A stretch of DNA of 64,000 nucleotides from Bolinopsis microptera. Its lineage: Eukaryota; Ctenophora; Tentaculata; Lobata; Bolinopsidae. The notes under the pieces are model-generated. The model was not told the DNA's origin, ran no database searches, and was given only the letters and a program-made list of their open reading frames with translations. A program made the translations under genes and the position numbers. Where the stretch lies: assembly GCF_026151205.1 (NCBI RefSeq), contig NC_087084.1, positions 5,325,538 through 5,389,537 on the forward strand, read 5' to 3'. This document shows positions 231-33,507 of this stretch, piece by piece (the first letter of the stretch is position 1; each line of letters starts with the position of its first letter).

Positions 231-2599
231 GAAATATGATATATAAATGTATAACATTGTACGAAACAATTAAGAATTGGTGCCCCTAAACAACAAATAC
301 TGAAAACAGGAAATTCTGTTGTCAGACATTTCAGTTAAATTTGTTTCCTTAATCTTGAACGCATGTAAAACGTAAGTTGGTGTAGAAGAGTTCAGTTAAT
401 TGATTGCCTAATTTAACTGACCAGTAAGAGAAGGTTCCATGTAAGTAGCGATACCACACGGTGAGGAAAGGTACTTCCCGCCTCACAGTAGTGCCACTTG
501 GGACATTTTCTGTTCTTTCCGTCCGTAACAGGATTACGGGATGCGGCGCCGCTCCGATCCTGCAGTAGTCACCTGAGGTTTAGTGTGGAGAACATTTTGT
601 AGGGGATAATTAGATGAAAAGTTGTTTTCTTCTTGACTCGATAACGGACAGGTCTTTTTTCAGCAGTGTCCGTTTTTTTAATACAGGTGATGCCCAAATA
701 AAATAATATCCATAATACACGTGATGCCCAAATAAAGTAATATCCATAAAACACGACCCCCAGGTAAGTCGTTTGTACAATGTACGTGAGAAACGGAACA
801 AGTATCAACATTACCATCTCACTCAAGCTCAGTATGCAGCATATATTTCATCCGATATGAACATTTGATTAGGTTAAACAGTTTAATAGTTAATTAAGTT
901 ATTGATATAACGCCAGTCGTTTGTACGTGAGACAAAGACCCGGCTACATTTACCTGAGGTATCAGGTTTAAAGGGTTAACGCTTATTAAGACGGATCAAC
1001 GTCCCACGAAACCTAATGACTATGGTCTGAAGATTTGATTTATATTAAATATACAAAGGCCTCCGCCGTATTACTTTTCAACTTTCTTCTCGATAATTTA
1101 AAAGTGTTGTTGTTTACGTGATCAAATCAACTCTTTAATACCTGCAACCTTTAGCAGAAAATAGGAAGTGGATGTGGTTCATGCTAGCTCCGTGGCCCGT
1201 GCACAAAGGACTTTATTTTGTGCAATTATTCCAAATTTCATTCGGCTAGATCCCTGCGATTTTTGCATCGTCAGTGAGCCAAGGAAATTTTGTTTTGTTA
1301 TAATCTTAATGTCACGCACGAAACGATATTTGGGGGATTTCCAACGCGTTTTGTTTAACAGACTTTGGTTTACTTGCTGTCAGAAGCGATTGTATTTGTA
1401 TTTTTTGATCCCTTAATCTTATGTTTACGCTTATCATCCCAATATAGCACTCTCATAGTCTCATAGCTGGCTCTGGAGTTTGCGGTTTCTCAACCCCCTG
1501 TAAAATGTAGTTGCCGTTGTGGTATCATCTGAGAGGCCTTCTGTATTTCAAGCGTTGAATGGCCTAACACAATTTATTACAATTTGGCTCGATCCGATCA
1601 TTCGAAATATCTATAAAATACAAAATGAACCTTCGATTGAAAACAATTAAACATAAATATAATCGTCATAATTTTAATCGACGGATACCTCGAATGAGTG
1701 GTGAACGCAAGTTATATCAGAAAGATTTATTTTAATCGGGCACTCAGGGACTGCAGAGGAATAAGCATAATTAGTAGAATGAATCTGCCAATGACGAAGC
1801 CAGCTTAGCTAGCGATTAATTCCCCATTTAAATATATTGTATAACTGCGTCTAACAGAAACCCCTGGCTTCAAATATAGTAGGGGGACTGAGCAATCATT
1901 GTTAACGTAGGGGGACTGAGCAGAACCGGATTACCCTGTTAAACGCAACTAAAAACCTTTTATTTTTTAACGACCACTTTCACCGTTCTAGTGAACAATT
2001 TTTGAGACCAGCTCTTGCAAAATGGTCATTTATATTTATTAGCATAAAATCAGAATAGAATAACAAGGTTTAGGACTATCTTTATGATTAAGTTAACTTT
2101 AAATACGAAATAAACCTCCGAGTTCTAAAAAGCGGAAAAATAAATAACAAGACTCTTGCTTCTTTGATTCTGATACAGATGACAAATGTCAGGTACAGTT
2201 TTATCTCTCATCTCTTATTATTATCTAGTACAGTATTGTCCATTATTTTCAGCTATTATTTATTATTATCAAGTTAGTGCCGTCAAAATCAAATTTGTCC
2301 TCAAAGTTAAACAATCGATTATTTTTCTATCGTCACCGCACTCTATAAAACGTTTATAAAAATATTTGTTGTGGATATTAGATTTTTTTGTCGGTAAATT
2401 TATTAATTTATTAGTAACAAGTGGTGTACTGGCGAAGGATCCGTAAATATTTAATATTTATATTGTTTAATCCCTCTGCTCTAGTCTAATACCTACACTT
2501 TTTTGCCTCTTTTTCTTGTGAAAGTGTCTCATCTGATGAACGCCTAAAAATAAAGTTATTCTGTTTATTGATCGTGATTCATTCAGTTGCAGCCAGGCC
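231..2599. other. No recognisable gene; AT-rich intergenic DNA
   Basis: No ORF here has a recognisable domain or splice-consistent exons. A short imperfect direct repeat (about 32 bases, around 690-755) and a few ATG-poor open stretches are present. It probably contains the promoter and 5' UTR of the mosaic gene starting at 2600, but no core promoter element could be called with confidence. Confidence 0.4.
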
Positions 2600-5500
2600 A
2601 TGACGCAAGTAGTGTTCCACGTCCTTTTATTCCTCCCTGCATTTGCCTGTGAGTATATAACTAAAATTAGTCACAAATTTCGCAAATTTTTAGTCTACAC
2701 AATTTAAGTCACATTTTTTGACTTTTCGAGATCATTTTCCGTTCTATTCCAATTATTTGATTATTTAGCTAGTTTTATTTTTCGATTTCGCACATAAAGA
2801 AATACTTTAAAGTTTAATGTCAAGCATTTTGATTAAATGATTTTTCGCAATTTGTCTCACGGGAAAAGGAAGTAGGTAACTTGTATGAGAACGTAAAAGC
2901 AGAAAAACAATGGATTATTAAAGGTGTAATAGTCAAAGTACAGCAGTAAGAACAGTGATCCCATTATATTAATTATAAGTAATGTAAGCTCAATAATATT
3001 CATGTCACTATGCTTGGTGTAGCTTGTTGGGATAGTATTATATAGTACTAGAAACCCGCTAGTCGAAAGATTTGTTCGAGGAAATTTTAAAAATCAGTTA
3101 TGTTTTAATTTCTCTTCATCATACAGCTCTGTTATACAGTAGACATAATGGAATTTATTTAACAATGGCGACAGCGTTGTTATTATTCGGATTCCCAAAA
3201 CGATACTTTTTACCGCATCAAAAAATACCAATCACAACCAAAGTTATGAATATAAGTCATAGCGTGAGCGTAAATGTGAGCTAGTTTTGAAGTTATGACG
3301 TAGCATACAGCATAACAACGCGCGTAGTTAAGATGTCCTTGCTCGCGCACGTGCATTTTAACGTTGCTACGCAACAGCGCAGTAAACCTTTGCTAAAATA
3401 ACGACATTATTCTAACGGTTATTTTACCTCACTTCCGACGTTAATTATAAAAAATCTAAAGCCTAAATCAAAATTCTAAGAATGCTATAGCCTATTCCTA
3501 TCCTTTTTCTACAACCCTGCTAAAAATGGCAAGGTTTCAACTCCATTTGCGAGCTGGGTTTGATTTCACCAGAGGGTCATTTTGAGGTCGATTTTCGGTG
3601 TTTTTACTTCTATGTCCCCGTTGCCGAGGAAATTTCGTCAAGTTAAAATTATAGTATAGACTAGAAACCCACTAGTCGAATGCTTTGTTCGAGGAAATTT
3701 TAAAAATCAGTTATGTTTTAATTTCTCTTCATCATATAGCTCTGTTATACTGTAGACATAATGGAATTTATCTAACAATGGCGACAGCGTTGTTAGTATT
3801 CGGATTCCCAAAACGATACTTTTTACCGCATCAAAAAATACCAATAACAACCAAAGTTATGAATATAAGTCATAGCGTGAGCGTAAATGTGAGCTAGTTT
3901 TGAAATTATGACGTAGCATACAGAGATACAGCATAACAACGCGCGTAGTTAAGATGTTCTTGCTCGCGCACGTGCATTTTAACGTTGCTACGCAACAGCG
4001 CAGTAAACCTTTGCTAAAATAACGACATTATTCTAACGGTTATTTTACCTCACTTCCGAAGTTAATTATAAAAAATCTAAAGCCTAAATCAAAATTCTAA
4101 GAATGCTATAGCCTATTCCTATCCTTTTTCTACAACCCTGCTAAAAATGGCGAGGTTTCAACTCCATTTGCGAGCTGGGTTTGATTTCACCAGAGGGTCA
4201 TTTTGAGGTCGATTTTCGGTGTTTTTTCTTCTATGTCCCCGTTGCCGGGGAAATTTCGTCAAGTTTAAATTATAGTATAGATATAGGAATTTTAGTTCCT
4301 ATAGTTGGGAATGAGGTAGTTGTCTGTTCACAGATCGCCCTATAAAACTTACAAGGAAATATTTCCTGTAAATCCTTGGTATATAAGCAACATTTGACAG
4401 AGCATTGTGTGGATTGAGCTATGTGCCCATCCTTGGAGAACCCGGCGAATGTCCTTGCTGTACGGCAGTGTTAAACAAGGAACTGAAACCGAGGGGTTCC
4501 GTTTAGGCCCTTCACACTTTGTTTCTGTCTAGTTCTAATGTACCGTCACAATAGTGACTTTAAATATATACTTTACTGAAATTTTGGTCTGCTTTTAAAT
4601 TAGTCGCCGAAAAATTCAATCTCAATAAATTTGGTTTACAACAATTTTAGTCAAAATGACTAAATTTATGGTATAGTACACTAAATTTGTCGTTCTTAAA
4701 GTTAAGGTAGATTGCAATAGAATGATAATAATAATAATAATAAGTAGAAATTTATACATCGCTTTATAGCCATAAAGAACTCAAAACCCAAAGATTCAGT
4801 TCAAACCAACAATGTTTAAATGCATGTGCAGTTTAAAAGTAATTTAAGTTTGTTGCGTCTGTTCTCTAAGGGAATGTTAAACCTGTAAATGCTCTCTAAT
4901 TCTTTATCATTATAAGCTAGAGCTTCAGTTCTAGCTACATATAATTGATCATGTGAGACAACAGGCAAAGGTAAAAAAATTCCTATTTTATCAATCCTTG
5001 ACCCTGGCTTTTATTGATAGTTAAAGTTGAACAATATGCTAATTTTATTTTTTATTTTTTATTTACACAATTTGCATGTGGGCGGTCGTACAGACAGACA
5101 GAAATAATCTTTCTAATTATATTATAGACTAGAAAGCCCGTGGTAACAGGGACGAAGCTAGTAGTATTCTTTGAAAGAAAGTTTTAATCCTTTAATCGCA
5201 TCAAAAAATATTCATCTCAACCGAAGATACAGCCGATTTAAATATAAAACACTTTAAACACAACGTAATTACCACAAAACCGATCAAAATGACGTTAAAA
5301 CAGTCTTTGCACGTGCATGTGTGCATTAAAACACTGTTGCTATGGAACCTTTTGGTTGTTACCTAAATTCCTATTTTTCATCTAATTTTCACGTGGGCGG
5401 TCGTACAGACATACATTCTACAGAAATGATTCTCTGAATTATAGTTGAGATAAACAATTTATTCAAATAAAACCGTGGGTTTTTAGAATATATAATTTCA

Positions 5501-8500
5501 GCTGGATTGGGATACCCCCTAAGAGACTACAGCGACGAGAAATGTCCAATCTGCTACAACCCCAGGGTCATGAACCTTCCTGCTGAATGCACGCGAGATG
5601 AAGCCGATGAAACTCGAACTAAAGGTAGAGTGTGTGATCAAGTTTATAAGCGATTTATATGTTACATACCATAAACAATTAACAAATGGGACATAAAATT
5701 ACGTTAAAGAAAAGGAAAAATGAATCGATAATGATAGAACTATATATAAGATAATTAAAATGAAAATAAAAACGACTATGATCTAATTATCAAGAACGTA
5801 ATATGGATATTTCTGGGTAGTAATCTAATCTAAATCTTAGTGGATATTATCTAAAATAAACTTAATGTTGTTCGTTACACTTACAGGTATATACAGTTTA
5901 TTAGTTTATTGTATATAATTACTGCAGATGTTTATTTACAATTAATATTTTATTTTATCCTAGCGTGCGATGAGGATGAACATTGCTACGTGGTCAAACT
6001 TGGAGATGATTATGACTTAATCAATTATTACAGCCATGGCAACTACCATAAAGGCTATAATGCCGTATTCCTCTGTGCCGACCACAATGGTAAGCATCAT
6101 TAAATGTTTATGAATTATATGATATCCTTTCCACTTTTCCAGTGCTTCATGATACTGATAGTAGGTATGTTTTAGAATTCTGAAACTTTAAACATATCTA
6201 ACATAATCATTATTCATTATGATATAATACATATTATATGTACCTGTACCAGGTACCTATACTTGTAAGTTGTATTGTCTAATATCTAATAAACTAATAA
6301 TATTTAGTAATCGGAATAAATTAAAAAAACAATTATTTTATCCTTTATGTTATAGGAAGGGCTAATTTACATCGACAAGGAGTTTCGATTAGAGAGGTGG
6401 CATTTACGACTGCTCCACCCACGGGCTCAACTAGTAAGTAATCAGCGGGGATTGCATGGTTGCACAGGATTACACAGGAAATTATACAGGATTACATAGG
6501 AAATTACACAGGATCACACAAGATTATACAAGATTGCACAGGATTATATACAGGATTACACAGGAGTATCTATACAGGATTACACAGCATACAAATTAAA
6601 TTGTAGGCCCACAATTTACACTTCCTCTGAGGTTAAGTGTATTGATTTCTCTTGGAGAATTTCTCTTTACACTCTTAACTTGCGAACAAATTGAAGCAGC
6701 AGACTTCAGGCTATAAACTAAATAGTTTTTACACATGAATTGTGAATTCTGAACAACCAGTTTTACGTTTACTAATTTAAATTAGTATAGTATCATGAGT
6801 AGTACAGAATTTAGTTGTATTAGCTTACATTTCTTCTTGTCGTATTTTTTGTTGTTTTGAATTTTTTGCAATTACATTTTTGGGTCATATTTCGTAAATT
6901 TTATTTCTCTGTTTTTGTTTTAATGTTATTTTAAATTTCTTTCCGTCGTTAATTTTACACATGTTTAACAATTTTATTACAGAACTGAAGAAGACGTAGT
7001 TACGTGGAATGATTATTTCAATTCAATAAAGTTTATAGCCTAAAGTCTGCTGCTTCAATTTGTTCGCAAGTTAAGAGTCTAAAGAGAAATTCTCCAAGAG
7101 AAATCAAGTTCAAATGCGACTCATAAATATAGCCCCCTTGAACTAATTAAGTGTATTGAATTTTAATTTTCTTAACCTCCCAGCTCCGGTACCTATGACA
7201 TTGGCCGATTTCAAAGAATGGGTGACAGACATGATAGAAACAAAACCGGAAATGGTTTCGCTAACCGTGATCCCATCAATGGCTGATGGACCCATCATCT
7301 GGAAACAGACTGTTACCATCTCTTGCAACTGGACACCCGGAATTCGAATGTATGGAGATATAGTGGTGGGAGAAACATTAGAATCCATTTGGGGCGATGA
7401 ACAGTACGGAGAAATTGTTGACCTCGAAGGTAAAATACAGTTTTTAGTTCGTCTTACCTGTAACATGCCCTGTTTAAATAGATATATCAATGTTCGTCTT
7501 GGTAAGATAACACACGTACTGCTTAGATCAGTTAGATGTATGAGCAACTTTTACTAATAAAGAAGCAATAATGCCTATCTTGATTAATAATTAATAATTA
7601 ATAAATACTATGAAATATTTTTGAGCCGTTAAAACAGCTTCCTAAATTTTCAGATCCGGATCAAAGAATTTACTTCGTTTCTGATGACGATATAGGTGAA
7701 GCTATCCTCATCATAAAAGATGTTACTAGCGCTGATACAAGGCAATTCGGATGTGAGGTCTCTCGCAAAGGAAATTCTAACAACATCACTCTTGACATCA
7801 TTGGTAACTAGAATTTGCTTTTGTCCGTTTTTTATTTGGTCCCGGCCTTTATTTGAAACCTTAATTATTACACATCAATATTTTCGAGCATTGACAAATG
7901 CTTTCAGACCTTATATCTGTCAAATTATCACTGCATCTTGAGGGCACAAATAACTCTTGACTTGTAATCAATAGTCATGTAAATCTGCTTTAACCAAGAA
8001 ACTCTGCAGAACCCCCCATGGCTGGAGTAGTCAACTTCGTTGCTGTCCCTGAATCTACCACGGTTGATCTTACTTGGGATCATGTCGAAGGAGCCTCTAG
8101 CTACAATGTAGGATGGCGAGCAGTTGGTGCTCCCGACTGGAACACGGTTAGTTAGTTCTTATTTCTCGACGAAATTCCTGAGTCTTGGATATAAAGTAAA
8201 GCTGTAAACGTCGAATCAGTCTTTCAGTCGGTTTATTTCCATGAACATATGGCAAATTGTATAATGTATAAAGAGATCTAAATCTTTAATGTTGAATTGA
8301 ACTTTCCTCGAGACTGAACGCAGTGCAGCAATCTGACTAAGGATATTACAGGTCGATGTTACAACCAACTCTCACCAATTTGTAGGTCTATCTGTTGCCT
8401 CCAACTTTGTGGCCAAGGTAGATGCTTCCAACGCTGCCGGAATTAGAGAGGGAATTGAGCCTGCTGAGACTTCCTTTACCACAAAGGATAACCGTAAGCG

Positions 8501-11500
8501 TAAATCGTTTATTTTTTTGATAAAAACTTGTATCTTGTGAAAAAAAAGGAAATATAAACTTGTAAGAGAACGTGAAAGCATAAAAGCAGTGGATTATTAC
8601 ACGTGTAATAGTCAAAGTACAGCAGTATGAACAGTGATGTCATTATATTTATATTAACTATAAACAATGTAAGCTCAATAATATCCATGTCATGTATGCT
8701 CTACTGAAATTTTGGTCAGCTTTTAAATTAGTCACCGAAAAATTCAGTCTTGATAAATTTGGTTTACAACAATTTTAGTCAAAATGACTAAATTTATGGT
8801 ACACTAAATTTGTCGTTCTTAAGGTAGATTGCAATAGAATGATATGCACAATGTTTAAATTAAAATGCATGCGCAGTTTAAAAGTTATTTAAGTTTGTTG
8901 CGTCTGTTCTCTAACGTCTTAACGTAATGATAGGAAGTTAAACCTGTCAATGCTCTTTGACTCTTTTATCTTTATGAGCTAGAGCTTCAGTTCTAGCTAC
9001 ATATAATTGATCATGTGAGACAACAGGCAAAGGTCAAAAAATTCCTATTTTATCTTAATCCTTTACCCTGGCTTTTATTGATAGTTAAAGTTAAACAATA
9101 TGCTAATTTACATATTTGCATGTGGGCGGTTGTACAGACAGATAGAAATAATCTTTCGAATTATATTATAGATAAACAATTTATTCCTATAAAACCATGG
9201 GTTTTTAGGATATATCTTACTTATAATTCAGAGAATATACGACCGCCCACGTGCAAATTAGATGAAAATAAGAAGTTGCATAGTAACCATAGTAACGAGG
9301 GTTATTACACGCACGTGCACGTGCATTGTATCGTTTTTATCGTTTTTGTTGTTATTACGTTGTGTTCAGCGCGAGCTACATCTTAATCGGTTGTATCTTC
9401 GGTTGTGATGGATATTTTTGATTTGATAAAAACTGACTGAAAAAAATATAAAAATACTAGCTTCTTCCCTGTTACCACGGGCTTCATAGTTCTTAATAAA
9501 ATAGTTCTAAATAAAAGGATTGTACACAGATATCATTTGGTTAGCTGGACTTTCGTAAACTCAAGAAAGAGATCACGTCGATTAATATTTTATAAGGGTA
9601 GTACACGATACAAATTTGAAATTTTGAAGTACATTTTTATGTATTTTATATGTTGTGATAGAATGTTTGATATTTACCCACTATATTTCACAGGGTGGAT
9701 TAGCCCACAATTACAACAGAGCTACAGCCTAGAATTAAGTCAAACCCTGGAACTAAAGACCACCATGAATCAGGTTGAAGCCCCCATAACCGTTTATTTT
9801 ATTTTCCCCGAAGACGAAACTCAGTTCATCAACTTCAAATGCACGGATCTTAACTCAAGCAGATGGATCCTCATGATCAAACAATGCATGACTGACTCGT
9901 GGGATGCGGCCCAGCCCCTGAATGGAGTTTCAAGTGACCAGATAAAAGTGTGGCGAATCACCCGAACAGAGACCAGCTTGCTAGTGGAGTGCAATGGTGT
10001 GACTGTCCTTATCTTCAACTTCGCGAGTGACTACAAGGACGGTTTCTCAAGCTGTCATAGCTTCTGGACTAGGCATTCCAAAGCGATCAAGTTTAACTGG
10101 AGTGGCGGATTGTATAAAAACAACGGGCATTTGTCCATGAGAACAGCTGTAAATAAGGGTATATATTTTGTTAACATTCATTAACTAATTTTGGTCTACA
10201 GCATTTTGGTTTGATATTATAATAAACCACGTGCAAATTAGGTAAAAAAGAAAAAGGTTGCAAAGTAACCATAGTAACGAGGGTTATTACATTTACACGC
10301 ACGTGCACATGAAATGATTTTTCAACGTCATTTTGATCGGTTTTGTTGATGTTAAGTGTTACGCTGTGTTTAGTACGAGCAACATTTTAATTGGCTGTAT
10401 CTTCGGTTGTGTAGGATATTTTTTGAACTTACTAAAGTACTAACAAAAAATACTATTAGAGTATTAGCTTCCTCCCTGTGACCATGGGTTTTCAATTATA
10501 GTCTTACTTATAATTCAGAGAATTCCCTTTGTATGTACGACCGCCCACGTGCAAATTAGATGAAAAATAAGAAGGTGCATAATAACCATGGTAACGGTGT
10601 TCAAAAGCTCACGTGCACGTCATGCAAAGATTTGCGACCGGCATTTTGATCGGTTTAGTCGAATTACGTTGTGTTCAGTGCGAGCTACATTTTAATCGGC
10701 TGTATCTTCGGTTGGGATGAATATTTTTTTTATGCGATAAAAACTGTCTACCAAAGAATACTATTAGTTTCCTCCCTGTGAGTGTGACCACGGGCTTTCT
10801 AGTCATATATAATTTCAGCTGGATTAGGATACCCCCTAAGAGACTACAGCGACGAGAAATGTCCAATCTGCTACAACTTGTTCGGGGGCAACCTTCCCGC
10901 TGAATGCACGCGAGATCAAGCCGATGAAACTCGAACTAAAGGTAGAGTGTGTGATCAAATTTATGAGCGATTTATATGTTACATACCATAAGGCATAAAC
11001 AATTAACAAATGGGACATAAAATTACGTTTAAGAAAAGGAAAAATGAATCGATAATGATAGAACTATATATAAAATAAAGATAATTAAAATGAAAATAAA
11101 AACGACTATGATCTAATTATCAGGAACGTAATATGGATATTTCTGGGTAGTAATCTAATCTAAATCTTAGTGGGTATTATCTAAAATAAACTTTATGTTG
11201 TTCGTTACACTTACAGGTATTTACAGTTTATTTAATTAGTTTATTTAATTAGTTTATTGTAGATAATTGACATACGTTGCATGCCACTTTTCGCGCGCGA
11301 AGCGCGCGCCGCCGAAGGCAGATGTTTATTTACAAATATTCTATTTTATCCTAGCGTGCGATGAGGATGAACATTGCTACGTGGTCAAACTTGGAGATGA
11401 TTATAACTTAAACCATCGCAGCAATGGCAACTACCATGAAGGCTATAATGCTGTATTCTTCTGTGCCGACCACAATGGTAAGCATCATTAAATGTTTATG

Positions 11501-14208
11501 AATTATATGATATCCTTTCCAGTGCTTCATGATACTGATAGTATGTTTTAGAATTCTGCAACTTTAAACATATCTAACATAATCATTATGATATCTATAT
11601 TAATATTATATGTACCTGTACCAGGTACCTATACTTGTAACTTTGTAAGTTGTATTGTCTAATATTTAATAAACTAATAATATTTAGTAATCGGAATAAA
11701 TTAAAAACTATAAAACAATTATTTTATCCTTTATGTTATAGGAATAGCTTATTTACGTGGAAAAGGAGTTTCGATCAGAGAGGTGGCATTTACGACTGCT
11801 CCACCCACGGGCTCAACTAGTAAGTAATCAGCGGGGATTGCCATGCAGTTGCACAGGATAATTACACAGGAAATTACACAGGAAATTATGCAGGAAGTTA
11901 CACAGGATTACACTAGATTATACAGGATTACACAGGATAACACAGGAAATTACACAGGAAATTACACAGGACATTACACAGGATTACACAAGATTATACA
12001 GGATTACACAGGATTACACAGGAAATTACGCAGGATTACACAGGATTACACAGGATTGTATGCAGGGTTACACAGGATCATATGCAGGATTATATACAGG
12101 ATTACACAGGACATTACACAGGATTAAAACAGAGGATTACACAGGAGTATATACAGGATTACACAGGATTATATGCAGTATTACACAGCATACAAATTAA
12201 ATTGTAGGCCCAAAATTTACACTTACCTCTGAGGTTAATAGAGTTTTGACTTTTAATTTTCTTAACCTCCCAGCTCCTATGACTACATTGGCCGGTACCA
12301 AAGAATTGGTGACAGACACGATAGAAACAAAACCGGAAACGGAAGAGAGCGAATACGAATTACATCCGTCAGATGCAACTCACGAAGGGGATCAAGTTCT
12401 AGAAAAATGTATATTTGAAATTGAAGCAGCGATCCGCCATCCAACACAACAATATGGTTACGTCTTTTCTCGTGGTATATACGTCAGACTCGAGGCTGAT
12501 GACATGTACGAACAAATCTTACTACACTATTAGTATAGACAATAATAAACATGATTTATCATGATTGAGCAGTCGCAGAGTTACGCACACTCTTCTAAAA
12601 AAGATAGCATGACTCGGTGTACTCGACTGAAGCTACATTCCATTTCAACATTCTTATATAACTCGGAAGTTGTAGCTACATACTAAACCAATCAATCATA
12701 ACAAATGTCAAATGTCAATATACCAGGAACATGCCGGTAGTATCGGAAGGTTTTCCAAAGTACGTTGATAGCATATTGCCGGAACTGAGCGGGAAGATAG
12801 AAGCAGCTTTTACTGACTACGATAACGCTAGAACTTTCTTCTTTGTTAATTACGACGAGAAATCGTAAGTTCGTCATTTATTTTGTTTTTAAGCATTAAG
12901 GTTTTTAAAAGAACGGCCCCGGCCTCTCTGTCATCTGCAGTTTAAGCTTATTGTGTTTAATTAAGTCACGTGATAGTCGAGTGTAATGTGATTAATATGG
13001 TATTCATAGCTCCGTACGACAAACTGCAAACAAATTCGAACGAAGCTGACGATTGACAAATTTAAAATCTCCGAAACAACAATCTCGATCTGTCGTATCA
13101 ATCATATTTCGTTTGAACATTCCGGAACCCAGTTCATGTTCGTATTCATATTTTCACAACATGACATACAATATAATCATAATTATAAGTCCCTGTAATA
13201 CAATTGTGTATTACTATCATCATCGTCTATGTTGATATTTCAGGACAAGGCAAGTGTACAGATGGGACTGGCTCTACTCTGAAATGAAAAGGGAGGATGA
13301 GAGGACATTTGCCGCTCTTCCTCAAAATGATATCAAGGGGATCGCCAGGTTAGTTTGAGCCGCGCAACACTAACAACACGTGCAGCACTAACATTAACAA
13401 CACGGGGGTTGTGCAAAAAGGGGGAGGAGGATTTCTACAAAATGACGTGAATGAATATTTCTCACTGTCTAAATTCATTCCATGATTATGAACATGAGTT
13501 CTCATTTCTAATATGCTGGTCCCTCAGTTACCGTAGCAGTGTTGCGTTCCTGTTTGCAAACGAGTACTATGAGTGGACACCAAAGTTAGGGCTGAACAAG
13601 GAGGGTAGAAAATATAACAAACACGATGAACCAACGAATGAAAGTGGAGCTTTTGATGCTTTCTTACAAGGCTACCACCACAATGGCAGAAACAACGTAC
13701 CGGAGGTAAAATAACTTAAATAAAGCAGTCCTGATTTAATACTAACAGTCAGGGCCGGATCGTTAACATATTACAAATACATGAAGGGAGGGCCGTTAAT
13801 TGGAGAAGTTAGTTTAAAATATGGCTTACGCGTACGCAATATTATTGAATATGTGAACGACGTCTTCCACTGCACTGCAAAAATTACTCATGCGGGGATC
13901 CCAGGCTTCATCATCATGTTCATAAACACATTGACATTGTGATTGAAACCGATTGAAGATATGATGGAATGACAGGCTGATCAACGCCTCCCAGTAAGTT
14001 ACGTGTTGATGATGCTCAGACAATTAATACATGAATAATACGTATTTTAAAAACACTAATAAAATACGTATTTCAGAAATACGTGCTGCTCAGATCAGAC
14101 GTAATGCATGGCGGCAAGATTCTACACACCTACTCATATCTTCGCTTTGAAGAGGAAATGAATCTCCACGTGTGCGTTGACCATAACGATCATAACGCAC
14201 GTACATAA
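2600..14208 (+). CDS. Secreted mosaic protein: Cys module, Ig, FN3, FAMeT-like, Cys module, hemopexin
   Basis: Hand-built 17-exon model, about 874 aa: 2600-2648, 5502-5624, 5964-6089, 6356-6433, 7184-7429, 7654-7803, 8010-8146, 8352-8493, 9694-10158, 10819-10941, 11355-11477, 11742-11819, 12274-12505, 12727-12864, 13244-13348, 13528-13705, 14077-14208. Every junction is GT...AG and in frame, and most are phase 1, the signature of shuffled extracellular modules. Order: signal peptide MTQVVFHVLLFLPAFA; Cys module (CPIC, CDEDEHC, aa 17-125); an Ig-like domain (ISCNW ... FGCEV, 126-257); FN3 (258-350); one 465-base exon resembling the farnesoic-acid methyltransferase-like (Methyltransf_FA) domain (VWRITRTETSLLVECNGV); a second copy of the Cys module (506-613); hemopexin-like repeats (IEAAIRHP, KIEAAFTDYDNARTFFF, VAFLFANEYYEW). 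Likely a matrix or cell-surface adhesion protein; function is inferred from domains only. It could instead be two genes fused by this model. Confidence 0.72.
3048..4280. repeat. Tandem pair of ~612-bp near-identical repeats
   Basis: Two units (3048-3659 and 3660-4280) lie head to tail in intron 1 of the mosaic gene and differ at only a few bases and a small insertion near 3920. Each begins ACTAGAAACCC and ends near AATTATAGTATAG. The ends resemble those of the ~300-bp dispersed repeats at 5125 and beyond, so they may be related non-autonomous elements. A 70-codon open frame occurs in both copies but shows no domain. Confidence 0.8.
4545..5125. repeat. Intronic repeat, copy 1 (partner at 8697-9175)
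   Basis: This stretch and 8697-9175 share long near-identical runs (AAATTAGTC-CCGAAAAATTC, CAAAATGACTAAATTTATGG, GCTAGAGCTTCAGTTCTAGC). Short stretches further out (2875-2960 with 8555-8645; 5445-5492 with 9168-9230) are also shared, so larger intron blocks were copied within the gene. The copies differ by indels, including an (ATA)n run at 4724-4741 present only here. Confidence 0.7.
5125..5452 (+). mobile_element. ~300-bp dispersed non-autonomous element, copy 1
   Basis: Starts ATTATAGACTAGAAAGCCCG and ends ...GTGGGCGGTCGTACAGAC...GAATTATAG. Copies in the opposite orientation lie at about 9215-9495, 10225-10500 and 10505-10808 in the same gene. The length, repeated ends and lack of coding potential fit a MITE- or SINE-like element; the class is not settled. 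Confidence 0.55.
6466..6590. repeat. Minisatellite, ~10-bp GGATTACACA unit (short copy)
   Basis: Degenerate tandem array of CAGGATTACA / CAGGAAATTACA units in the intron after the third Cys-module exon. The equivalent intron of the duplicated module has a much longer version (11850-12185). Confidence 0.8.
8697..9175. repeat. Intronic repeat, copy 2 (partner at 4545-5125)
   Basis: Second copy of the block at 4545-5125, in the intron between the FN3 exon and the FAMeT-like exon. It lacks the (ATA)n expansion and has small deletions. Confidence 0.7.
9215..9495 (-). mobile_element. ~300-bp dispersed element, copy 2
   Basis: Reverse-orientation copy of the element at 5125: GACCGCCCACGTGCAAATTAG at one end and TTACCACGGGCTTCATAG at the other. 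Lies in the intron before the FAMeT-like exon. Confidence 0.5.
10225..10500 (-). mobile_element. ~300-bp dispersed element, copy 3 (partial)
   Basis: Begins at the internal CACGTGCAAATTAG motif and ends CTTCCTCCCTGTGACCATGGG, so its outer end is missing. It sits directly next to copy 4 in the same intron. Confidence 0.5.
10505..10808 (-). mobile_element. ~300-bp dispersed element, copy 4
   Basis: Begins TATAATTCAGAGAAT, contains GACCGCCCACGTGCAAATTAG and ends ACCACGGGCTTTCTAGTC. Its end lies only about 10 bases before the splice acceptor of the second Cys-module exon (10819). Confidence 0.55.
11267..11322. other. Inserted hairpin with GAA triloop (paralogous empty site known)
   Basis: A block containing CATACGTTGCATG followed by the stem GCGCGC-GAA-GCGCGC and a short GCC-GAA-GGC is present here. 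In the paralogous intron around 5925 the flanks are joined directly (ATAATTACTGCAGATG), so this is an insertion of about 50 bases since the duplication. A related arrangement is at 52411-52481. Confidence 0.6.
11850..12185. repeat. Minisatellite, ~10-bp GGATTACACA unit (expanded copy)
   Basis: Same array type and same relative intron position as 6466-6590, but about 330 bases long. It produces a spurious open frame rich in TQE/TGN repeats on the plus strand, which is not a gene. Confidence 0.85.
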
Positions 14209-17882: not shown

Positions 17883-19530
17883 CTAAAATTCTTCAGTACT
17901 AGCTATGATAAAACGTTTAATAGTATCCAGTTCTTCTCTCTTGTTAATTGTAGGGTTCAGATTAATAATAAACATCGCTTCGAAAATCTTTCTTCTGACA
18001 GTATTGGGCTCAATTCTTAAAATATCTACTTCTAAACTGGGATTTAACTCCTCATGACAGCTCGAATAATGTATGGCAAAAGCTTGACTAACATTAGAAG
18101 GGGTAGCAGGGTAGGTAGCGTAACGTAAGTGTTCTCCTACACGAGCATGTACTTTCCTACTGGTTTCTCCAACGTACAGCTGGTCACATAATTTACACTT
18201 AATCTTATATACAACATTCTTCACTTCACAATCTTTATTACAAACTATCAAAGGACAAATTTTACATGAATTAATACTGCACACACGTTTATCATACGGT
18301 CTGTTACTACATAAAATATTTCTCAATTTCGAAGTAGGTTTAAAGTTTACTTTAATAGGTAAATTGTTCTGCTTTACATAATTTCTAATCTTATTGCTAG
18401 TACTGTCCGAAATAAAATCTAAATTAAGAACTGTCCTGGAATCATCCTCAACACTCTGACGCCTGTTAGAATTACTACTGTTACAATAACGTCTTGGGTT
18501 CTGGTACCCGTTTTTCTGTAATAGATCATCAAGGAGTCTGAGAGAGTGCTCCTTTTCCGCTGGGCCAGATGAGATACGGCAAGCCTCGCTATATAGGTTC
18601 TTCACTGTATTAATCTTAACAGACTCAGGATGGCAAGAGTTGTTGTGCAGGGTAATATCCTTTTGTTGCGGCTTGCGGTACAATCTGCTGGTTGATTTAC
18701 CGTTTGGCTCGATCCGGACCTCAGTGTTCAGGAAGGGGATAAAATCGTCCTGTTGTTCTGGAAAGTCGACCTCCCACTTCAACTTTTTGTCCGGATCTTG
18801 GTCTGCAATCTGTTGAACCAGAGCAAGGGCTTCTTCTTTCGTCTCTGCAGTACTGGCAGCATCATCTATGTAGCGTTTGTAGAAGTTCGATAAGTATACC
18901 GATAGGTAGTGTCGATCGGTGTAGATAGAGTTCTTCTCGAACTTGTACACTCTAATGATGGCACAGAAGGGCCCTGGCCTCAAACCCATGAACAGACCAT
19001 CCTGCTGTAGCCAGAGAGTCCTGTTATACACAAAGAAAGAGTTGGTAAGGATGTGTAGTAGGATCTCATGAATGTCTGTCAGGCTGAGTCCCATCAGGTC
19101 CAAGCTGTCTCGGTGCTCTGTAGCTAGCTCAATGACATCGTCTATACAGCCCTGTACGTTTATGTGAGTGTATAAAGCTGAAATATCCGCGGCAAAGAAC
19201 TTTCTCCTGGCAAGCTGTTCCTGAGAGATCTGGCGGAGCATCTCTATGTGCTGGATTAAATTACTCAGGTGACTAGGCACCTCATTAAGGAGAGGTTTAA
19301 GAATGGTCGTCACTAGCCAACTGAGTCTCTCTGTAGGTGAGTCCACGCAGCTGATGATGGGTCTAACCTTAACCTGCTCAAGAGGGATCGTCGAGCGGAA
19401 GCTCTCCGGAGGGTTCTTGTGGGTCTTGATTTGGACGTACATGACTGGGAGGCTGACATGGTCAGGAACTCTGATCCGTCGTTTGTAGTCGTCGTCAAGG
19501 TTCCGCTGTGATGAGATCTTCTTCCACAGG
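17883..19530 (-). mobile_element. Penelope-like element: RT + GIY-YIG endonuclease
   Basis: Intact frame of 519 codons from the first Met at 19442, open upstream to about 19530. RT motifs: VKVRPIISCVDSPTERLSW, the A-box FFAADISALYTHI, GLRPGPFCAI and the catalytic YIDD box. The C-terminal third has a Cys cluster (CSINSCKICP) followed by a GIY-YIG nuclease: VVYKIKC, LYVGETSRKVHARVGEH and a distal Glu in KIFEAMFIINLNP. RT followed by GIY-YIG is the diagnostic order of Penelope-like elements, which move by target-primed reverse transcription. The 5' part is missing or in other frames, so the copy is 5'-truncated, but its coding frame has no stop over 1.6 kb, suggesting a recent insertion. Confidence 0.88.
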
Positions 19531-19559
19531 TTATTCGACTCCTATCACTAATCATGTGA

Positions 19560-24238: not shown

Positions 24239-27037
24239 GATGAAATGAAATGAAATGAGGTATTTATATCCCGCTCATATGATTAACCAACAACACAAGG
24301 AAGAGGTTAACCATGTCAGAGCGGCTGACTGTGAGTAATGTGAGCAAATGTGTAAAATGAACAAAAGTATAACTCAAAAAGGCTTAAGACAAAATTAAAA
24401 CATCTTTTATTGTAAACACCACACTAAATTAAAAAGAAGCAGAAACCATACAATACGTGTGTCGTGTAGGTATTATAAATGATAATACAGTGACATGATC
24501 AACAAAAAAGAGAGACAGATCCTAGAAAGGTAGAGATCAAGACATAAAATGGAGTACAGTAAAAAATAAAAGCCAATGTGTCTTGCAAAGTGAAGACAAA
24601 TGGGAAGAAAAAACATCAAAACTGATTATATAAATGGTTCTTTAACATTCGCTTGAAGCAGTTGGTATCAGTAATACATCTCAACATCATTGGAAGAGAG
24701 TTCCATGCAATCGGTGCATGGCTTGAGAAACGTCTGTCATCAACTTTGGACCTTTTATTCTTTGGTACCTTTAACATGAGATGGTCACCAGATCTTTTCG
24801 ACCTGGTCATGGTGTTTGAAAGTTCTGTATCCACTACAGCCACATCTAGTAATGCTTTTAGGTAATCAGGTGCAGTACCGTGAACTGATTTGTGGGTTAA
24901 AAGACAAACCTTAAAGAAGATTCGCTGGTCTATAGGGAGTATGTGGGCCTTCTTATAGAAGGGAACCAAGTCCGTGGTTCTGTCTTCTATGTTATAGATG
25001 AAACGAACTGCCCCATTAAGGGTGGATCTAAGTTTGTTTAATCTGGTATTGGGTAGATTCATGTACAGAGAATTACAGTAATCTAATTTAGATATAACCA
25101 GTTGTTTCACCAACATCAATTTAATGCCTTCATCCAGGTAACGACCAATAGTTCTTAAGTTCATCATTGTCCAGCTACATTTCCTTTTCACATTATTTAT
25201 TTGTCTTTCCATGTTTAAAGTTTCATCAAATTTGACACCTAGACTCTTCCAGCTGTCTCCTTTGCACTCCGTAGGTAGAATTTCAGTGCTTCCGAATTGT
25301 AGTCTGACACTGAGTTCACACTTTTTTAGAACATGGCTCTTTCCTAACACCAGTAGTTCTGTCTTTGTTTCATTCAGTTTCATGTAATTGTTCACCATCC
25401 ATGTTTTGATCTCTGCAAGACATTTGTTTGTCCTGTCTTGGACATCAGTGAACTGTACCACACGGTTTGGTTGAAACGAGATGTACAGTTGGGAATCATC
25501 TGCATATAGCTGTATATCAAGACCATATTTGGCAGCAATTTTTTGGAGAGCTTTGATATAGAGGATGAAAAGAATAGGCCCCAAGAGTGATCCCTGGGGA
25601 ACTCCAAACAAAAGCTCCAAGAAAGTAGAAAGAGTATCGTCAATCTTCACACAGAAGTGTCTCTTCTCAAGGTAGGACTTTATCCATTGCAGTGCACTTC
25701 CAGTAATTCCATAGTCTTTCATAAGCTTTTCCAATAAGACTGTGTGGTCAATGGTATCAAACGCTGCACTTAAGTCGAGAAGTACAACAATAACAACATT
25801 CCCAGCTTCAATTTCTTTGTTAAGATCATCACACATTCTTACAAGTAATGTTTCACAGCTGTGGTTAGGGCGGTATCCAGATTGGACGTCCGAGTAAAGG
25901 CTATGTGTCGTGAGATGGACATTGAGCTGGTTAAGTACAGTTCTCTCTAGGATCTTGGAGAAGGCAGAGAGGTTAGAGACTGGTCGATAGTTACTGAGAA
26001 TATCAACATCAGCATTTTCCTTCTTCAAAGTCGGCTTGATGACTGCTTTCTTCATATCTGAGGGAAAGATTCCAGTCTTTAAGGATGAGTTCAAGACGTG
26101 GAGTAAAATAGGTGTCAGTTCAGCGACACAGTTTTTTAAGAGAAATGCTGGGATCGGATCCAAGCAGCAGAACTTGTTGGACATCTTTGATACCAGGTCT
26201 TTGAGTTCATCAGCTGTTATCTCAGAGAAATTACCAAAGATGAAGTCTTTATCAAGAACAGGATCTTTGTCTTTGTCTTTGTCTTTGTCTTTGTCTTTGT
26301 CTTTGTCTTTGTCTTTGTCTTTGTCTTTGTCTCTGTTTATATCTTTGTCTTTGTATATCTTTGTCTTTGTCTTTGTCTTTGTCTTTGTCTTTGTCTTTGT
26401 CTTTGTCTTTGTCTTTGTCTTTGTCTTTGTATTTGTCTTTGTCTTTGTCTTTGTCTTTGTCTTTGTCTTTGTCTTTAACAGAATCTTTTCCTTCCTTCTC
26501 AATGGCTCGTCTGATGGTAGCAACCTTTTCAGCGAAAAAATCTTTAAAATCTTCTAGTTTAACAGGATCCTTGTAGTTTGGAAGGTTTTGGGTGTCATTT
26601 CCTAAAAGTCTGTTGACTTTTTTGTACAATGCTTTAGTATCCCCTGAAGAGGACCTAAGAGAGGTTTTGTGGTGAGCACATCTTTTAACAAACTCCACTC
26701 GGGAAAACTCATCTCTTAGCTTAACATAATCAGATCTCAAGTACTCAGATCTTTCACTGTCTATATAATCTACGTTATCTTTTCTCCAGGCACGTTCCGC
26801 AGTTCTTCTTTTTCGCCTGAGAATACGAAGTTCTAGATCTAACCATGGCATTGGCTTCTTAGTAATCTTCTTTTTTATGTAGGGACAATGTTTATCCATT
26901 AACTGAGTGAGTACGGTGTTGTAAAGGACAACAGCATCATTCGGAGACATATCTTTGGGGAAGTTTGTCAGTTTTGAAATTAGAATATCTTCTTTAAACT
27001 GTTCTGTATCAATTAAATTAAAGTTTCTGTAGTTCAT
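24239..27037 (-). mobile_element. 5'-truncated L2/CR1-like LINE, RT interrupted by hexamer array
   Basis: Minus-strand non-LTR RT: ORF 24616-26250 carries NYRPVSNLSAFSKILE, DLSAAFDTIDHTVLLEKL, GVPQGSLLGPILF and the catalytic LYADDSQLY, and ends with the CR1/L2-type tail HAPIAWNSLP. The upstream linker (26480-27037) is in a different frame of the same array. Between them a (GACAAA)n array (26262-26475) shifts the frame, so the protein cannot be read through. The endonuclease and 5' end are absent. The 3' end is probably at 24239-24257, a short tandem of TGAAA/TTTCA units as expected for this clade. Confidence 0.85.
26262..26475. repeat. (GACAAA)n hexanucleotide array inside a LINE ORF
   Basis: About 35 units (CTTTGT on the plus strand) with a few variants (TATATCTTTGT, CTCTGTTTAT). 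The six-base period keeps each frame open, giving Lys-Asp, Lys-Thr or Arg-Gln dipeptide runs, but the variant units change the phase between the two halves of the LINE. Spurious long frames on both strands (repeats of Phe-Val and Ser-Leu) come from this array. Confidence 0.9.
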
Positions 27038-27749
27038 AAATTTAACAATCTCCGTAAAACTACATCATTAGAGCCTGTAAAACTAAAACATTTAAGATAA
27101 GCACTCTATCAAGTAAAATTCATATCATCATAGTTTATTTAAGTTTAACTCAAACGTACAACTACAAATTGTAAAAAAGGCAAAATTTAATCAAAGGGCA
27201 AAATTCATAGCATGTTAGAATTCTTATTTAAGTATATTATATCCTCTACAGCTTCTTCTACAGCTTTATTTGTAAATACGACCGATTCTATCAAATAACC
27301 CAGGTTGCAAGTAAAGATTACAGATTACAAAATTGTTAAGATGCACTGAGTGAAATAAATAAAAAGTCTAAACATAAACAAATTACTGTTTTATCTCCAT
27401 TGTATTAAGTCCTCAAACGTTAGTTTTAAAATTTGAACAAAATCTTGCTTCTTCCTGATCAAACAAATTGGTTTTGTTGATCACTTTTTGGACAATTTTT
27501 AACCCCCCCCCCCCCCCCCCCCCCTATATAATACGTATAATAATACAAATACGTATAGGGACGTATAGCTATAATTCTGTCAAAAGTACACAAGCGTAAT
27601 CATTTGGAAACCCCCCTTCCCCCTCGGCTGATTACGTAATATGTGAACGACACCATATGAATGTGGCACTTTTAAAATTAGAGTAAGACATTTGTGGCAT
27701 TAATGATTGATTGGGGGACTGGTCCGTAGTACCAGCCAATGTTTACTCA

Positions 27750-29221: not shown

Positions 29222-32200
29222 CTATGTTCTTTGTGATTTACGTAATCCAGGTAGGTTGTGGAGTAAAAATGGTGGCCATTCGTCGTTGCAGCCAGCACTT
29301 TGCAAGTCTAGTAGTACTTTTTTTGACGAATTCTTATATATGTTGATAGAAAATATACTGGATGGGCATGTAATGCGAGTGTTATGCTCTGAAATAGCGA
29401 GCATTGGGCCTTTATAAAAGATGCTAGATCTCAGGTCAGTCTGTGAGTAAATTGATAACCAGTCTAAGTTTTGTTCGTGTGTCGTTCCTTGTTTGGGTGT
29501 GTTAGGAGGGAAAAGTTCTGAAATCGATTTAGGTAACAAACTAGACATATTTCGAACTTTGTGCAGTAAAATAAGTGCGTTTTTAACGATAACCCCTTGA
29601 ACGGTTAAGACCTCGTGTTCTTTAAATGCTAGTTTTGTGTGCTCTGGCAGTTTTCCGTCCTTGTAGTAGTAGTTCACATTTCCGGCCATAACTGCCCTCA
29701 TACCTTGTTTTTGTTTAGCAAAAAGAGATTCTATAAGAGATTTTGAAGCAAATCCCCAGACAAGTGAGCAGAAGTTTAAATGGGACTGAACAAAACTTTG
29801 GAAAATCTGTAAACGGGCCTTCATTGGAAATTTATGTTTTATCCTGTACATCACCCCAATAAATCTTGACATCTTGCTCCTCAGTGCTTTTATGTGGCTA
29901 CTCCAGTTAAGCTTTTCATCTACAATTACACCAAGAAACCGGGCTTCAGTTTTACGTTCTAATACTGTATTTTCTATTTGTACTTTAATCAATGATGGTT
30001 CTATGCGCTTTTTCGAGAAAATCATATAACACGTCTTTTTTAGATTTAGTGCTAATCCGTTGCTATTAACCCACCGTGATAATGTTTCCGTTAGTTGGTT
30101 GACCCTTAGCATTAGTTCTTGGACATTGGAACCGTTAATAATGATATTTGCATCGTCTGCATAAAGTATGAATTTTACCATCATGTTAGAAATACCGGGA
30201 AGATCGTTGATGTATATGACGAAAAGTAAGGGACCTAGTATGCTCCCTTGTGGAACACCATGCACAATAGGCTTGTGGGACGAATGTGAATTGTTTATTG
30301 CTACATATTGGCTTCTATCACTTAGGTATGACTCAAACCACTTTAGAGCTATTCCCCGGATGCCGTAGTGCTGTAATTTATTTAGCAGTGTAGCATGATC
30401 CAGGACGTCAAACGCTTTACTGTAATCTAATAATAGCAGTAGTGAAATTTGGTTTTTGCTAAGAGAGTGTAAAATTGTACTTTGTGCATTAAGAAGAGCA
30501 TGTTCACAGGACCTTCCTGGACGGAACCCATACTGATTTTCGAATAAAGAACTATTTTTGTTGAGAAATTCTAAGACACGTCGGTGCATCAGTTTTTCGT
30601 AGATTTTTGAGAAGGAACCTAAGAGAGAGATGGGTCTATAATTTTCAACGTCAAGTTTAGAGCCTCCTTTATGGATGGGAGTTACTTTGGCAATTTTAAG
30701 GGCCTGTGGAAATATGCCTGTACTTAAGGATTCGTTGATAACTTTTGCTAATATAGCAAGGAAACTATCGCTGGAACTGGCTACTTTTAGTGGTTCAATT
30801 TTTGTGTCAAGGGTCGCTTTGTTCTTCAAACCAATAATAATTCTTTGAATTTCGATCGTTTCAGCAGGCTGGAGATGGATTGATTGAGAACAGGATGTGG
30901 GCAGATATTCCTGGAACCCCCCAGGGTCAAAGGTCTGACGGGCACTTATCTGAGTTTTGATGTTCGTAGCAATGTTCGAGAAATAGTCATTAAACCTTTC
31001 AGCCACGGTATCTTCAGAACTCAAAATCGACCCGTCCGAACCTTTAAGTCTTAACTGCTCTGTTTTCCTGCTTCTACCAAGTAAACCGTTGATTATTTGC
31101 CATTGTTTTTTGGAGCAGTCCTGGTATTTTTCGAATTGTTTTTTATAGTATCGTTGTTTGGCAATGTTGACATGTTTTTTACAGAAAAGTTTTAGCTTTT
31201 TATAGGCCTCTATATTATTCATTGTAGGTTCAAGTACTTTACTATGATAACTTTCTTGTTTCCGCGCACATGCTTCTTCAAGCCAGGGTAATATCCAGGG
31301 TTTAGTATTAGAACGCTCATGTTCACGGCGAATATGATTGATTTTTAGTGGATAGGCAGTGTTATAGTGCTTGGTGTATATATCTGCAAGTTTTCCGTAT
31401 TGCAGACTAGCGTCGTCTGTACTTAATATCTCGTCCCACGTTTCCCCATCGATGAGTTCCCTAAAAGCAGCATTGTTGGCTTCATTTATGACACGTGTTT
31501 CATAACTAAGTTTAGGTTGTGTGTTAGTACGTCTTCTTTGGTCTTTGTCTTGATGTCTGCATCGAAGAGGACAAGGAAATGGTCAGATTTGGTTCTTGAG
31601 GGACGGATTTCAAATGAAGTCAGTTTTTCCTTGAAGGATCTATTAGTAACTACAAGATCTAGAGTTCCACCTTGGTCATGGGTTGGCTCAAGAGGAACAT
31701 GTTGATAAAGGTCATACTCCTCCAGGAGTTGGTAGAGCTTCTTTGGGTAGTGTTCTTCAGGCTTTTCCATGTGAAAGTTGAAATCTCCAGCGATAATAGG
31801 AAAACCAGGTTTGACTGTGAGGTCTTTAAGGTAGTCTTCAAATTCTTCTAGAAAGGCAGACTCCGTGTACCGAGCCTTCTTGGTATAAGGAGGCCGATAC
31901 AAGTTCACAAGTCTCACAATATCTTGTTGAGATTGTAGCAGTGATTCCATCACTTGGAAGGATTTGTACTTCGTGACCTTACTATTACATTTTAACTGGA
32001 GGACATCACGAAATAGCATAGCTATACCTCCTCCTCCTCTATGTTTTCGTGGGTCCGAGAGTATATTCCAACCAAGGTCTTTGATCTCCATTATCTTAGC
32101 TGTGTTTCCATCACGAAAGAAAGTTTCTTGTACAAAACAGATGTCACAGTCAACTTCTTGAAGATGCTCTAAGACTCCGACTGTTTTGTTCACTAAGGAT

Positions 32201-33365
32201 CTTACATTGAACGTTCCAATCCTTAAACTCTTCCTAGGCGTAGTTTGGTCTCCTTTGTCTTCTGTACGTACCAGTTTTTTGAATTCTCACATCCTGCTGT
32301 CCTATTCATGATTCCAATCCGTTCTCTTACATACGAGGGACATAGGTTGTCAGAGGCTTTATGGGTCTTTGCTGAGTTCTTCTCCGAGTGTTCACTACTT
32401 TTGGCGCAGTTAGAGCACTTTATCTTTGTGACAATATTTTCACTTTTGCTTCTACAGTCTTTTGACTTGTGGTTTCCTGCACAGAAGAAACATGTTGGGT
32501 CTTTATCTTTGGCTTTACAGTACATGGAGTTAGCCATGTGACCAAATTCCTGGCAATGATAACATTGGATGACATGAATTCGGTCTGTAACATGGTGTTC
32601 CCTAAGGTCAATATGAACATAGTCTCTGTTTTGTCTGATTGACTCACGTACTGCTGCATTGACACGGATGACAGCCGTTTTCTCTTTATCATCGAAGAAA
32701 ACCACTTTAACCGCATCGTCTTTTTCAGATGAGGACTTCAGTATTTCATTCTTTTCCAAAAGTTTCTCTAGCAGTGCCTCCTTGTTTGTGATATCAGAAG
32801 GAATATTCCGAATAGACAGTTTAGGGTCCAATTTCTTTCCTGGTTCGGACTTTGACGATACCTTGTATTTCTCTTGACTTTTAAATACTGTTTCAGCTTT
32901 CTTAAGTTGATCCTTGGTAACAAGCTTGAAGGTTGCAGTATTTCCGGACACTGTATAGTTCTTCACTGGGTTGACTTTAAGGGAACCTTTCATTTCCTTT
33001 TCATCATCAATTGTGATAGGTTCTGCGTCTTCAGAGTCTGTGGTCTTTTTCTCAACTGTGAGTGTGTGTTTTTCTGCAAGCATAGTTTCTTCTTTTGCTT
33101 TCTTTTCTTTGGGTAGTGTTGCTACCACTGTATTCAATAAATCTGGTAGTATTGTGGGTAGTACTTCTGCTAGTACCTCTTTGAGCTGTGTCTTTATAAT
33201 TTCCTTGAAATCTGGTGATTCCTGTACTGTATGAGTTGTGGCTTGTTTTGTTCCTAAAACAGTTTGTGTTAGTTGAAGAGCATTTTTGGAGAAAGTGTCC
33301 AACTTCATCTTTTCCATGTCAAAAACCCTGCTAGAAAGATCAAGGACCGAAGGGACAAGTGACAA
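29222..33365 (-). mobile_element. Nearly full-length Jockey/CR1-like LINE (ORF1 + EN + RT)
   Basis: ORF1 at 32223 to about 33365 is a gag-like protein with Cys-His knuckles (CYHCQEFGHMANSMYC, CFFCAGNHKSKDC). ORF2 begins in an overlapping frame (IGTFNVRSL near 32200) with an APE endonuclease (ICFVQETFF, IIAGDFNFH, TLDLVVTN, TKSDHFLVLF), then RT at 29222-31490 (YRPISLLGSFSKIYEKL, LLLDYSKAFDVLDH, GVPQGSILGPLLF, ILYADDANI). The two halves of ORF2 are in different frames, joined near 31500-31530, where a small indel has broken one continuous frame. No other stop was seen in about 4 kb, so the copy looks young. Its 5' end lies just before the NERD-like gene. Confidence 0.88.
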
Positions 33366-33507
33366 ATTGTCAGTTCTTAAAAAAACTAAACAACTGTTTT
33401 GTAATAATTCGATACCTCAAATTATTTGTTATATAGTAGTGTTGAAAGTATTAAAACACTACTTAGATAGAATAGTAAAATATTGAAAATATTTAACTTT
33501 TCAGAAA

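Follow-up and report, generated by a model that had tools for sequence, protein, structure and literature searches.

The window analysed here, a 64,000-nucleotide stretch of contig C13 with 36% GC (C13:5325538-5389537) in a genome searched over 264.65 Mb and 232 contigs, contains a 17-exon gene model at 2600-14208 whose parts and neighbouring features are listed in Table 1. The exons, rebuilt from the genome sequence, gave a single open frame of 874 codons closed by a stop codon at 14206-14208, with GT..AG borders at all introns, which confirmed the proposal of the first-pass annotation that all 17 exons join without a frame break. From base composition, the chance that a random read of 874 codons stays open is about 4e-28, a figure that ignores the freedom in exon choice. 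The same annotation had described most borders as phase 1, and this also held: phase 1 was found for 11 of the 16 introns (introns 1-6 and 8-12), phase 0 for introns 7 and 16, and phase 2 for introns 13-15. The modules are symmetric, and the borders between them are of phase 1.

Table 1. Features of the mosaic gene model and its surroundings (positions in the window)
Feature	Position	Strand	Remarks
5′ leader, exon 1 and start of intron 1	2482-2655	+	common to the C9 gene
Exon 1, signal-peptide-like MTQVVFHVLLFLPAFA	2600-2648	+	
Cys module copy A	5502-6433	+	exons 2 (5502-5624), 3 (5964-6089) and 4 (6356-6433)
Chimeric exon 5	7184-7429	+	first ~66 nt a linker resembling the beginning of exon 13; remainder Ig
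Ig-FN3 part with introns	7260-8545	+	rest of exon 5, exons 6 (7654-7803), 7 (8010-8146) and 8 (8352-8493)
Intron 8 stretch similar to parts of intron 1	8562-9172	+	
Insert of ~1.58 kb	9216-10804	+	one repeat unit, then the galectin-like exon core, then two further units
Exon 9, galectin-like domain (predicted)	9694-10158	+	earlier called FAMeT-like
Cys module copy B	10819-11819	+	exons 10 (10819-10941), 11 (11355-11477) and 12 (11742-11819)
Linker and hemopexin-type tail	12274-14208	+	exons 13 (12274-12505), 14 (12727-12864), 15 (13244-13348), 16 (13528-13705) and 17 (14077-14208)

The exon borders of the model agreed with the ends of matches in same-genome relatives of the Cys, Ig-FN3, exon 9 and tail parts: those of the Cys exons were supported at three loci and those of the Ig-FN3 exons on contigs C9 and C10, and the splice sites of exon 9 were present in four copies on C5, C8 and C92. 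The weak point of the model is the donor of exon 13 (ACAT/gtacga), which scored 1.5, the model donors having a minimum of 4.2, a median of 8.4 and a leave-one-out minimum of 0.36; its position equals that of the donor AAAG/gtgggt in a matrix metalloproteinase (MMP) gene. Two repeat structures were observed in the introns, namely a tandem pair of ~615-bp repeats (97-99% alike, 3047-4225) in intron 1, and an inverted repeat (6642-7107; 78-nt arms that are 97% alike and separated by 310 nt) in the intron that precedes exon 5; the same repeat scan listed no inverted repeat in the corresponding intron ahead of exon 13.

Searches of the genome revealed counterparts of the signal exon and the Ig-FN3 part at other loci. 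The leader and signal exon showed 85.7% nucleotide identity over 182 columns to a locus on C9 (L087), and the Ig-FN3 part showed 88.6% over 1286 columns to the same locus; its segment 7615-8545 was 85.5% identical to a locus on C10 (L088). In the C9 gene, the signal exon is followed by an intron of ~120 bp and then by the Ig and FN3 exons, whereas in the window gene the same parts are held apart by 4.6 kb carrying the Cys module. As the Cys linker meets the Ig sequence inside exon 5, the join was no simple intron-to-intron event. The Ig-FN3 query gave 28 genome matches, four of which belong to this gene and the others lie on C2, C4 (weak), C5, C9 and C10. The reading of the locus as a mosaic gene with an Ig/FN3 pair and a hemopexin-type tail was supported, and the Pfam check of the 874-aa model found both domains of the pair below the cut-offs (fn3 21.2 bits against 25; I-set 12.4 bits against 23.7) and gave no hit in the tail. 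The Ig domain of the C9 relative also scored under its cut-off (Ig_3, 15.5 bits against 30). On C2, a 1493-aa open frame (4044845-4048585, minus strand) was observed to contain a tandem array of six Ig-FN3 units that resemble exons 5-8 and are uninterrupted by introns.

The three-exon Cys module described by the first-pass annotation is indeed duplicated: exons 2-4 recur as exons 10-12, and each copy consists of its three exons, their intervening introns and the opening 66 aligned nt of the exon that follows (5 or 13). Introns 2 and 3 differed from introns 10 and 11 at 26 of 586 aligned sites (4.4%, with 110 gap columns set aside), and the exonic parts, counted with the opening of exons 5 and 13, differed at 39 of 390 sites, so the exons have diverged about twice as much as the intervening introns; the Fisher test gave p 0.0009, and since the changes are clustered, its assumption is broken. 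The copies had dN 0.093 and dS 0.125, of which dS is high too, and gene conversion could be a cause of the excess exon divergence. Paralogous modules were found at C12:13.44 Mb, C13:0.87 Mb and C13:0.91 Mb, and six cysteines were conserved in all five sequences, both window copies included. At these three loci, the module lies near the start of its frame; it is followed by Ephrin_rec_like repeats at both C13 loci (the Pfam match was checked for one) and, as we read it, by a Thr-rich stretch and a possible PAN-like piece at the C12 locus. No convincing match to the module was obtained in Pfam or PDB searches, and its cysteine spacing recalls the six-Cys Ly6/uPAR unit.

The hemopexin-type tail has a relative at C13:7.36 Mb, in an MMP gene with the matrixin motif HEFGHVLGIRH and a Peptidase_M10 match (E 7.5e-15) in the exon upstream of the tail. 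The borders of exons 13-16 are found again in the tail of this gene, where exons 14, 15 and 16 start at the same places, and the two tails are homologous. The Pfam search of the 874-aa model returned no match to a catalytic zinc-binding domain. A hemopexin-type paralogue reached Pfam E 0.074, below the cut-off, and a collagenase-3 match had E 0.35; the fold model of this paralogue was poor (pLDDT 45.8). The tail also matched three copies on C12 (647277, 680470 and 852330, minus strand) that are 98-99% alike and intronless across the match, and the one that was read lies downstream of an uncharacterised stretch; a retro-origin of these copies would be a guess. Another observation at the MMP gene (C13:7363700-7369350, minus strand) was a ~53-bp minisatellite, in which about two dozen copies repeat the end of a hemopexin-type exon.

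The 17 exons could also be split into two adjacent genes, a signal-Cys-Ig-FN3 gene formed by exons 1-8 and perhaps exon 9, and a Cys-hemopexin gene formed by exons 10-17 that has its own start. This arrangement finds support in the C9 relative, which has Ig-FN3 exons with neither Cys nor hemopexin-type parts within 6 kb, and in two of the three Cys paralogs, where a hydrophobic stretch precedes the Cys exon in the same open frame. A candidate start exon for the second gene was found at 8627-8693, the only signal-like one in 8494-10818, with a hydrophobicity of 2.73 against 2.93 for exon 1; three of nine control stretches held a candidate of at least 2.0, the best being 2.70, slightly below 8627-8693. 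However, this candidate sits in a dispersed repeat (8562-8826), and with a stricter donor threshold it was dropped, leaving two candidates in 8494-10818, both hydrophilic (0.92). Moreover, intron 8 still resembles the intron of the C9 gene at 8825-9010, and the last part of intron 8 is similar to that of intron 1. The donor that closes exon 8 is normal and should be spliced to an acceptor of phase 1, and a start is required for exons 10-17; one gene would satisfy both demands. These observations favour one gene without proving it, and we regard two genes as the less likely case. The similarity between introns 8 and 1 at 8562-8826 was rejected as proof of a tandem duplication, because this segment is a dispersed repeat; the stretch 8860-9172 was similar to intron 1 only, among the matches scored.

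Exon 9 had been labelled FAMeT-like. This label was rejected, since Pfam PF12248 had no match at E<=1 among 27 exon 9 family members and the predicted fold was galectin-like instead. A genome search with PF12248 gave no matches at E<=0.001, but neither did the control genomes, and this search alone shows little; the absence of a FAMeT structure among the VIA-align rows listed is uninformative, and a limited literature search on FAMeT and Mnemiopsis found no paper. The AlphaFold2 model of the domain reached a pLDDT of 90.1, and galectin-type structures made up all of the 50 best rows listed by Foldseek and 49 of the 50 best from VIA-align, so that the confident predicted model has a galectin-like beta-sandwich fold. 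Pfam PF00337 (galectin) did not match the family, its best E being 0.06 in one of the 27 members. Galectins bind sugar through an H-N-R, W-E-R residue signature. Exon 9 differs from galectins in that identity was 5-18% among the matches listed; a weak alignment (E 0.77) places other residues at HFNPRF and leaves the His-Asn-Arg signature unmatched. The exon 9 family comprised 146 genome matches at E<=1, exon 9 included, the weakest of which are doubtful. As a side observation, this galectin-like exon family is large, partly clustered (C11:15.7-17.1 Mb and elsewhere) and without a Pfam name.

Analysis of the surroundings of exon 9 suggested how it may have reached its place. The insert that carries it adjoins exon 10, its right end lying 14 bp upstream, and the outer parts of the block are units of a ~275-300-bp repeat that occurs genome-wide and often in tandem; at least 91 matches to the unit, many of them tandem, came from the 40 scored of 1112 first-look candidates. 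Two copies on C5 contain the exon together with the repeats. Window 9221-10741 was 92% identical to one of them (L036), and the other (L037) was 95% identical over 9442-10803 and 98% over 9221-9386, with ~740 bp of other sequence between the two pieces. The left end of the block is identical in both copies and the right end in L037, L036 stopping at 234 of the 296 bases of the last unit. In contrast, the C8 and C92 copies have only the exon core in common with the window (about 9490-10227). Units 1 and 3 of the block matched their C5 counterparts at 94-98%, compared with 72-75% between different units within the window, and the units thus matched their counterparts better than each other, which argues that the block travelled as a whole.

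The likely unfilled counterpart of the insertion site was found in the same gene at 5474-5501, before exon 2. On the right of the block, 14 bp are identical to the 14 bp before exon 2, and on the left 60 of 72 sites match copy A, which is poorer than the match of the copies elsewhere; part of the left-flank-like stretch in copy A adjoins a reversed copy of the repeat. The insert is flanked on both sides by ATATAT, a possible target-site duplication, which lies within an AT-rich stretch. Repeat units within 1.5 kb were seen at just two of the 29 family loci examined (out of 145 further matches), both on C5, and because these share their upstream flank they were counted as one, giving two independent insertion sites (the window and C5). 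The locus thereby resembles transposon-captured exons, since one and the same block with repeat ends occurs at two sites and an unfilled site exists as well; the block appears to be mobile only in a modest sense. As for its relationships, 16 sites of the exon core join the window and C5 against C8/C92 and five join the window and C8/C92 against C5; outgroup-rooted trees left the closeness of window and C5 undecided (support 46 and 0.32).

No source transposon was identified for the block, and its ends may be Helitron-like. Transposition of the block would account for the arrival of exon 9, and exon 9 might instead have come in through recombination or template switching between repeat copies, a route for which we see somewhat less than even odds and which is compatible with either number of genes. 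In its favour, the repeat occurs commonly and in tandem, and its reversed copy in intron 1 (5128-5411) lies ~70-90 bp from the unfilled site; on the other hand, the block begins and ends where repeat units do, and the AT-rich flanks meet in the unfilled site. More tentatively, and with the odds clearly against it in our judgement, a tandem-repeat mobile element may serve as a plug-in cassette that holds an entire galectin-like exon of phase 1-1 together with functional splice sites, the window gene being one product that stands beside its own unfilled site. If so, insertion into any phase-1 intron would add a lectin-fold domain to a secreted protein. Further frames of the kind found in mobile DNA were observed downstream in the window: a 552-aa reverse-transcriptase-like frame at 17883-19541 (minus strand) with a possible GIY-YIG part, which we take to be Penelope-like, and frames at 24616-27064 and 29222-33416 (minus strand) that read as LINE-like reverse transcriptase, endonuclease and zinc knuckle.

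Taken together, these results are best read as a single mosaic gene of recent assembly that encodes a secreted protein, a reading to which we assign a probability of about 0.55. Its signal and Ig-FN3 exons resemble a C9 gene that has both as neighbours; a Cys-linker block stands between them, joined inside exon 5, with a second copy downstream; the repeat-flanked block, which contains the galectin-like phase 1-1 exon and its splice sites, ends 14 bp before exon 10; and the gene closes with an MMP-related tail that has no protease part. Presumably, transposition of the block brought exon 9 in; all 17 exons would be spliced into one mRNA and the product exported. As no enzyme is found among its Ig, FN3, lectin-fold and hemopexin-type parts, it would most likely be a secreted binding or adhesion protein, or perhaps a decoy. 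The repeat-flanked insertion of exon 9, the join inside exon 5 and the relatives of the parts elsewhere in the genome had all been overlooked in the first-pass annotation.

Selection tests were mixed. Between the window and C9, the Ig-FN3 part differed at 46 of 594 exon sites and 53 of 639 intron sites (8.3%), with dN 0.073 and dS 0.115, and exon 9 compared with C5 (dN 0.019, dS 0.033) likewise diverged about as much in the exon as in the introns, leaving constraint without support for these exons. Such similar divergence, along with the weak donor of exon 13, would be expected of a functionless product of shuffling, transcribed or not, that is under no selection and still open because it is young. 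However, 874 codons are open, the 3-nt length difference between exons 3 and 11 keeps the frame, and all six cysteines are kept, and we consider a functionless product improbable. A recent and weakly constrained origin of the mosaic gene is possible.

Most cases of exon shuffling are deduced from ancient proteins. In this case, a single genome shows relatives of the donor genes, the joins, the carrier repeat block and the unfilled site, and the steps are therefore datable and testable. If exon 9 is spliced, the gene gained a domain through mobile DNA with its frame unbroken, and it illustrates how new extracellular proteins can arise. Among the matches to the Cys, tail, exon 9 and Ig-FN3 queries, no other locus of the genome combines these modules. 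To our knowledge, no named protein has this domain order, and the parts of the literature covered by a limited search held no counterpart.

In its phase-1 module borders, the window gene resembles the mosaic extracellular proteins that arose by phase-1 exon shuffling. It is like the matrixin (MMP) gene in its tail exons, which share borders and show 60% identity over the part compared, and unlike matrixin genes in having no protease domain. Pack-TIR blocks in animals are reported to be often transcribed together with their neighbours (Nat Commun 2021, PMC8277862). The block in the window gene is like Pack-TIRs and other transposon-captured exons in that host exon sequence was copied inside a repeat-bounded block, and unlike them in that the captured piece is an entire symmetric domain exon including its splice sites, and that tandem-repeat units form the boundaries.
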